Origin: Pseudomonadota bacterium | GTDB lineage: Bacteria; Chloroflexota; UBA5177 | DNA length: 38,887 bases | Direction: 5' to 3' | Assembly (NCBI GenBank): GCA_021324655.1 | Contig: JAJPIP010000110.1 | Coordinates: forward strand, 1-38,887 | In this document: positions 30,661-31,489 of the stretch, in pieces | Layout: each line of letters begins with the position of its first letter | Numbering within the stretch: the stretch's first letter is position 1 | Notes under the pieces: generated by a model | The model's database searches: none | What the model was told of the DNA's origin: nothing | Seen by the model: the letters and a program-made list of their open reading frames with translations, nothing else | Made by a program: the position numbers and the translations under genes

Positions 30661-31150
30661 ATGACAGATGCTATCCGCGAGCCGGCAACGCGGCACTCCT
30701 TGCGCTTGGCGGGTTACGAGTACACTCGGGCCGGCGCTTACTTCGTGACCATCTGCATTCGGGAGCGCGTGTGTTTATTGGGTGACATCGTCGACGGTGT
30801 CATGCGTCTCTCGCCCATCGGCCAGATTGCCCAGGATCTCTGGCAGACTCTGCCGGAGCGCTTCCCCCCCTCTCACGCTTGACGTGTCAGTGGTCATGCC
30901 CAATCACGTGCATGGCATCATTCTCTTGCCGGAAGACGGGACTGTGTCGTTGGGCTCGGTGGTGCGCTCCTACAAAGCAGCGACCACCCGCACTGTTCGC
31001 CAGTCACTGCTGCTCGCTTTCGCCTGGCAAGCGAACTACTACGAGCACATCATTCGCACGCCGCATGCCTGGAACCATATTCGGGAGTACATCACAACCA
31101 ATCCCCGGCGCTGGGAGTTGGATCAGGAGAACCCCGATAGCACACCGTAG
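30661..31150 (+). pseudogene. REP-associated tyrosine transposase (RAYT, IS200-like), frameshifted
   Basis: Two frames join into one RAYT of about 162 residues. The first part has HSLRLAGYEYTRAGAYFVTI and then GVMRLSPIGQIAQDLW. The second has VVMPNHVHGIILL with the HxH metal-binding pair, and WQANYYEHIIR with the probable catalytic Tyr. The frame changes at a run of seven C at 30864-30870; one C fewer restores the frame. RAYTs cut single-stranded DNA at REP hairpins. Here the gene is followed within 65 bp by an inverted pair of REP-like hairpins. It may be inactive, or the run may be an assembly error. An ATG-like start six codons earlier (30643) is possible. Confidence 0.8.
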
Positions 31151-31489
31151 AGAATCTGTTGCGTCCTACGGTTGGGCCGAAAATGCATCCGTCGCGGAAC
31201 ACTTGCATCTGCCCTGTAGGGGCTTGATTCATCAAGCCGCTGCGCCGCAGCGCAGATTTGACGTCTGCTGCCGGATTGTCTTCCGAGGAACGATACGACG
31301 GCCGGCGATCAGAGAGCGTCGTGACGGCCCGTAGGCGAGACCGGAGACGGGAAGCTCGGCTGCGGCCGAGCGGTTCGATGAATCGAACCACTACATGCGG
31401 TCGGCGACGGGTCACCTTGGCACCTGGGATGGCGTTCGCTCTCCCGAGGTCCGCGTGATGGCTATTGGACTTGCCTATCCGATCTACGG
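31151..31489. other. Non-coding region downstream of the RAYT, mostly hairpins
   Basis: No gene is seen in these 339 bp. The first 65 bp lead from the transposase stop to the REP-like pair (31215-31395), described separately. The last ~95 bp to the end of the nucleotidyltransferase gene show nothing recognisable. Confidence 0.6.
31215..31395. repeat. Inverted pair of REP-like hairpin units (BIME-like)
   Basis: The left unit has TGTAG then GGCTTGAT-TC-ATCAAGCC (31221-31238) then GCTGCG-C-CGCAGC (31239-31251). The right unit, read on the minus strand, has TGTAG then GGTTCGAT-TC-ATCGAACC (31372-31389) then CTCGGC-CGCA-GCCGAG (31355-31370). The 41-bp ends match at 32 positions, and stem differences come in compensating pairs. 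GTAG at the head is the usual RAYT recognition tetranucleotide. Confidence 0.8.

Follow-up and report, generated by a model that had tools for sequence, protein, structure and literature searches.

A REPIN-like doublet of two-hairpin REP units beside a frameshifted RAYT-like gene

The 38,887-bp stretch of DNA analyzed here (the window) contains a frameshifted RAYT-like gene followed by a 181-bp inverted doublet, each end of which is made of two abutting hairpins. Our preferred reading, with a rough probability of 0.6, is that the doublet is a non-autonomous REPIN-like element, which a RAYT transposase mobilizes in trans in the form of single-stranded DNA, and that the clade of the window RAYT is its likely cognate. 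A first-pass annotation of the same DNA had described a RAYT-type transposase broken at a C7 run, with two inverted TGTAG-headed hairpin units downstream. Both are read directly in the sequence, the gap measuring 64 bp. What goes beyond that description is that the two units disperse together as one element of fixed length, 181 bp, and that the unusual part is the presence of two adjacent hairpins with a constant CGCA loop.

The RAYT-like gene and the doublet in the window

The features of the locus are the following.

30661..30882, + strand: N-terminal part of the RAYT-like gene, from ATG at 30661 to a frameshifted stop (TGA, 30880-30882); can be aligned to the corresponding part of the intact homologue G002:C213
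30864..30870, + strand: C7 run, where the frame shifts by one base (direct reading)
30860..31150, + strand: C-terminal part of the RAYT-like gene, with HVH (HUH motif) at 30905-30913, the catalytic Tyr (EYI) at 31088-31090 and the stop TAG at 31148-31150
31215..31395, no strand: inverted two-hairpin REP doublet, REPIN-like, family Z, 181 bp; six full DNA-level copies (this one included) and a decayed seventh, 180-183 bp, with single units elsewhere
31215..31256, + strand: unit A; TGTAG, one free base, stem 1 31221-31227/31232-31238 with loop TTCA, stem 2 31240-31245/31250-31255 with loop CGCA
31257..31353, no strand: spacer of 97 bp separating the units, with partial conservation from copy to copy (doublet alignment); BLAST identity is 71-80% over whole doublets
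31354..31395, − strand: unit B; TGTAG, one free base, stem 1 GGTTCGA/TCGAACC with loop TTCA, stem 2 GCTCGGC-CGCA-GCCGAGC

The RAYT-like gene as a whole spans 30661-31150, and its two open parts lie in adjacent frames that change at the C7 run. The C-terminal part scores 24 bits against Pfam Y1_Tnp (cut-off 23). The only NCBIfam family matched by the window RAYT is REP_Tyr_transpos (E 1.6e-14 for the C-terminal part), with a score of 54.7 bits that is under the cut-off of 80, as is the score of the intact homologue in G002 (62.6 bits), a genome from another genus of the same taxonomic family. When the read-through protein is compared to E. coli TnpAREP (PDB 4er8), the match has an E value of 1.2e-4, and the HUH, catalytic Tyr and NP motifs align. 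As assessed by Pfam, motifs and this alignment, the window gene, though frameshifted, encodes a Y1 HUH domain with a single catalytic Tyr. It can therefore be classified, from these matches, as a RAYT-like Y1 transposase that is divergent from the curated set. Because the C-terminal frame contains no further stops, the lesion is either recent or a sequencing error. The proposal that slippage in the C7 run might rescue the enzyme found no support, since the closest homologue, the intact G002:C213, lacks the run, which makes programmed slippage unlikely, and no programmed slippage signal was found at C7. In a tree, the window RAYT pairs with G002:C213 with a support of just 0.46, the protein being short. 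Within its own genome, the broken window copy is the sole RAYT of its clade (the next best is 47% identical), and there are seven or eight other RAYT-like or Y1 loci.

The doublet is flanked by convergent genes, and 64 bp separate the RAYT stop codon from unit A; no GTAG-headed REPs were found upstream of the window RAYT. When the window was scanned with the consensus, allowing up to 3 mismatches, the two units were the only matches, for an expected number of 0. Unit B is the best covariance-model match of the host genome (E 2.4e-13). As a short GTAG-headed palindrome repeated between genes the unit corresponds to a REP, and as an inverted REP doublet dispersed as one unit the pair corresponds to a REPIN, but a REP is a single stem-loop of about 20-40 bp whereas each unit here consists of two abutting stem-loops, 42 bp in all. 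Stem 1 differs between the two units (GGCTTGAT/ATCAAGCC versus GGTTCGAT/ATCGAACC), and so does stem 2, also in a paired way (CTGCGC/GCGCAG versus CTCGGC/GCCGAG), with a CGCA loop in both.

Copies in the host genome, compensation and local folding

A 241-bp query around the doublet was searched against the draft host genome (G000; 3.8 Mb, 114 contigs) and matched at ten places, of which six, the window copy among them, are complete doublets. A degenerate pattern gave 12 matches and its reversed control 0. A covariance model detected 14 strong units and a few weak ones; having been built from these same 14 units, the model indicates that few others exist rather than adding evidence for them. In total there are about eight to ten copies of the repeat across the genome and a low number of units, about 14-18. 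Family Z units share the layout TGT[AC]G, one free base, a 7-8-pair stem with a TTCA-type loop and then, directly, a 6-7-pair stem with a CGCA loop. Seven doublets (180-183 bp) are present, with spacers that are clearly related in four (L001-L004) and weakly in the others. The partial conservation of the spacer among copies suggests that it is copied together with the ends. All copy sites with Pfam-readable flanks are intergenic, and the flanking Pfam domains stop outside the doublets. The 14 strong units and seven doublets bear out the view that the locus belongs to a GTAG-headed REP family, present in multiple copies, that preserves its structure as its sequence drifts; an absence of further copies would have contradicted this.

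Strong copies are confined to five contigs (C60, C27, C59, C79 and C84), about 0.3 Mb of the 3.8 Mb. For ten sites distributed over 51 equal pieces, the simulated probability of such clustering is about 1.5e-4, a value that becomes weaker if fewer distinct sites are counted; composition is uniform, and local spread or a single chromosomal region are possible causes. Contamination was rejected as the origin of the restricted distribution (see below), as contigs with and without copies are alike in GC content (0.64-0.66) and tetranucleotide profiles.

The paired stem differences noted in the first-pass annotation between the two window units are present in stem 1 as described, and they extend to stem 2 and to the whole family. 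Across the 14 family Z units, 93.9% of pair cells are paired, and 26 cells are changed on both sides versus 9.2 in shuffled alignments (a number reached in 0 of 500 shuffles). Shifting the partner by 1-3 columns reduces pairing to at most 40%. For hairpin 2, the comparison could be widened to 20 units from three families (see below), in which 99.2% of cells are paired and double changes affect all 6 pairs (19 cells versus 2.5).

We also compared the two ends of 20 doublets. Counting Watson-Crick pairs only, local pairing is 259/280 for stem 1 and 228/240 for stem 2 (93-95%). Left/right stem identity is 55-67%, i.e. 80/120 for stem 2 and 77/140 for stem 1, the latter being underestimated since the comparison includes some shifted registers. 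Stem sequence thus differs between the ends in nearly all 20 doublets, which do not form matching terminal inverted repeats; in family X, stem 1 is identical at both ends. In the window doublet both units fold locally, and for some other copies the minimum-energy fold is mixed or long-range. Preserved local pairing in ends that differ from each other argues that what selection maintains at each end is the local fold rather than a terminal inverted repeat. This weighs against a MITE of the DDE type, and against the idea that the main constraint is one long hairpin.

Related families and the candidate enzyme

The covariance model gave 15 matches in G002, and reading them revealed two distinct families, X and Y, with stems that differ from those of family Z in the same layout. 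Family X units read TGTAG, GGCCGATT-TGC-AATCGGCC and GCTGCGT-CGCA-ACGCAGC, with variants, and family Y units read CGTAGTT, e.g. ACATCAAT-TT-ATTGATGT and CTGCAC-CGCA-GTGCAG. Among the three families stem 1 and its loop vary, and the CGCA loop of hairpin 2 is constant in nearly all units. The 3' foot of hairpin 2 ends in CT in nearly all aligned X and Y units, and in 7/14 family Z units.

To map distribution, we scanned 400 genomes from the phylum for the pattern GTAG-N18-21-CTNNNCCGCAGNNNAG. It has 8 exact matches in G000 and 18 in G002. The remaining matches amount to 1-3 per genome, like the reversed control, and among those listed only one genome (G333) shows paired stems; the other members of the taxonomic family, G001, G003 and G004, have no matches. 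Among the 400 sampled genomes, none other than G000 and G002 showed the family of repeats. The sequence in the distant genome G333 (C8:51795-51832) is an isolated GTAG followed by a paired stem and a TTTGC-CGCA-GCAAA hairpin, and is either a chance occurrence or a distant relative. We also scanned, within 500 bp, about 75 other RAYT loci from named genomes and from relatives; the named homologues include many Chloroflexi MAGs, no more than a hint at the phylum of the host. These loci carry single GTAG hairpins, often of 8-9 pairs, or none; apparent second stems are few, weak, varied, or derived from neighboring REPs. In G002, neither a RAYT nor a nucleotidyltransferase adjoins the GrpB orthologue, and the nucleotidyltransferase was not found in that genome, so that an empty site is not readable by comparing the loci. 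Overall, neither an empty site nor an excision product was observed.

Which enzyme acts on family Z was judged from neighborhood and relatedness. The nearest homologues of the window RAYT, G002:C213 and the partial L090, adjoin single-hairpin REPs (GATTCTATC and GATTCATC, respectively) with a similar GATTC apex, and among the RAYT loci scanned such apexes occur beside these two only. No two-hairpin REP was found beside the four G002 Y1-type genes examined (C213, C171, C13 and C70), which have single-hairpin REPs or nothing, and a RAYT of this type was not detected in several genomes carrying the single-hairpin GATTCATC REP. In the host genome, four other RAYT loci (L031, L036, L033 and L035, on contigs C105, C38, C17 and C12) have their own, different GTAG hairpins, e.g. 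GTAGGCGCAGGGCTTGTCCCTGCG, GTAGGGACGCGGCCCCTGTCCGCGTCC and GTAGTGGCCGCCCCGAGTGGCGGCC, which makes several RAYT/REP pairs in a single genome and suggests one enzyme per REP type. Such a one-RAYT-per-REP-type rule has been stated (PMC6006769), and the four loci are in line with it. The probability that a doublet would lie 64 bp from a RAYT by chance is 1-6%, a rough estimate for one case of adjacency. Sequence and position thus point to the clade of the window RAYT as the likely cognate of family Z.

Two further observations concern the single-hairpin REPs. L090, from a MAG titled Myxococcales, is a RAYT gene fragment with a GTAG REP (GTAGGGGCGCAATTCATTGCGCCC) inserted just past the HUH motif, at about 1721-1744, and a tandem repeat further on. 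The single-hairpin REP TGTAGGGGCGCGATTCATCGCGCCC recurs across several families of the phylum (L108, L111, L112, L114, L117, L120, L124, L127, L128, L131 and L172), and in some of the genomes that carry it no close RAYT was detected.

Recognition of the doublet and alternative readings

Known TnpAREP enzymes act on folded single strands, in which GTAG selects a CT or CA cleavage site, and their recognition relies on loops or irregularities more than on the sequence of the stems (PMC8266576). The present families, in which GTAG and the CGCA loop are constant and the paired stems drift, fit this behavior by analogy. By the same reasoning, each doublet end would fold locally into two hairpins in single-stranded DNA, and a RAYT-type Y1 transposase would bind the GTAG tag and the hairpins through loops and stem geometry, not stem sequence. 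The enzyme would then cut beside the unit and move or copy the doublet. Hairpin 2 would most likely serve this enzyme as a second element to be recognized, given that it keeps a constant CGCA loop across three families with different stems. The CT at its 3' foot is a dinucleotide cut by the TnpAREP enzymes studied, and half of the family Z units lack it. We tentatively go one step further, at slightly less than even odds, and propose a bipartite class of REPs, in which a RAYT would read a pair of neighboring hairpins, the CGCA loop of one being invariant, so that two protein-binding folds would be present at each end. The stems would drift freely under compensation, and the ends would be kept different so as to fold locally rather than pair with one another. 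As the gene copy in the window is broken, family Z has probably been left immobile, unless some other RAYT of the host can act on it.

That a different Y1/RAYT enzyme moves the REPIN-like element, its position beside the broken RAYT being incidental, is the strongest competitor, though unlikely. It would account for G002, which has two two-hairpin families and no adjoining RAYT among those examined, and the host genome offers seven or eight other loci as candidates; against it stand the small chance of the 64-bp adjacency and the distinct GTAG hairpins near the RAYT loci of C105, C38, C17 and C12. Hairpin 2 might alternatively be a passenger, an ancient palindrome that gets copied together with an ordinary single-hairpin REP but is ignored by the enzyme. 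Hairpin 1 by itself does resemble a common single-hairpin REP of the phylum, and the composite repeats reported in Pseudomonas (PMC3733652) join degenerate GTAG units to unrelated stem-loops. However, a passenger would be expected to decay or to keep its sequence, whereas hairpin 2 stays 99.2% paired across families, with a near-constant CGCA loop and compensation at every pair, which makes this improbable.

Two readings outside the REP/RAYT framework are much less probable still. A MITE of a DDE transposon, recognized by its terminal inverted repeats, would suit the inverted orientation of the ends and the length of most copies (about 165-185 bp), but a DDE enzyme that reads sequence would be expected to keep the ends alike, whereas here they usually differ in stem sequence yet stay self-complementary, and both the GTAG head and the apex match REPs. 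We give equally little credence to a role at the RNA level, in which the element would have spread because it affects transcripts, for instance by working as a bidirectional terminator or an mRNA-stabilizing hairpin. REPs elsewhere, as in E. coli, can act on transcripts, and the window doublet sits between convergent genes. An RNA-level element would account neither for the GTAG head nor for the inverted arrangement, fixed length and related spacer of the doublet, and direct reading found no T run after the stems of the window units. No Rfam match was obtained, and a known RNA family was thus rejected.

The preferred reading, a REPIN-like element moved by a RAYT, has close counterparts. Like REPINs/BIMEs (Bertels and Rainey 2011, PMC3116915), the doublet consists of two inverted REPs and a spacer, dispersed intergenically as one unit and RAYT-associated. 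Unlike them, it has two abutting hairpins per REP, a low copy number, a greater length (about 165-185 bp in most copies) and ends unlike enough to favor local folds over one long hairpin. The GTAG REP families of PMC3733652 (2013) share the GTAG head, the paired stem and head-to-head dimers, including heterodimers with different stems; those described in the part available are single stem-loops, and it makes no mention of a second hairpin with a constant CGCA loop. The same source (Fig. 8B) presents composite double inverted repeats beside the P. putida 607 and P. fluorescens 4255 transposases, in which a GTAG unit is joined to a second stem-loop, in many copies and with an adjoining RAYT-type gene, but there, going by that description, the parts joined are a degenerate GTAG unit and an unrelated stem-loop. 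Given this precedent in Pseudomonas, the doublet is best regarded as a variant of known REP/REPIN elements and not as a new kind. By its features, rather than by subclass models, it also resembles TnpAREP subclass 2.4 (PMC6006769), with REPs that have a GC-rich stem foot and that can insert in the gene between HUH and Tyr; the homologue L090 likewise has one after the HUH motif. The window protein shares the HUH, catalytic Tyr and NP motifs with E. coli TnpAREP, but the REPs of the latter are single imperfect hairpins with a bulge (PMC8266576), and the window gene is frameshifted.

The biochemistry of REP recognition and doublet movement by RAYT enzymes, as treated in PMC8266576, covers three enzymes and single-hairpin substrates. 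The three families, with a constant hairpin 2 loop, free stems and unequal ends, amount to a natural mutagenesis set. They predict that the enzyme would read GTAG, the CGCA loop and geometry, and would ignore stem sequence.
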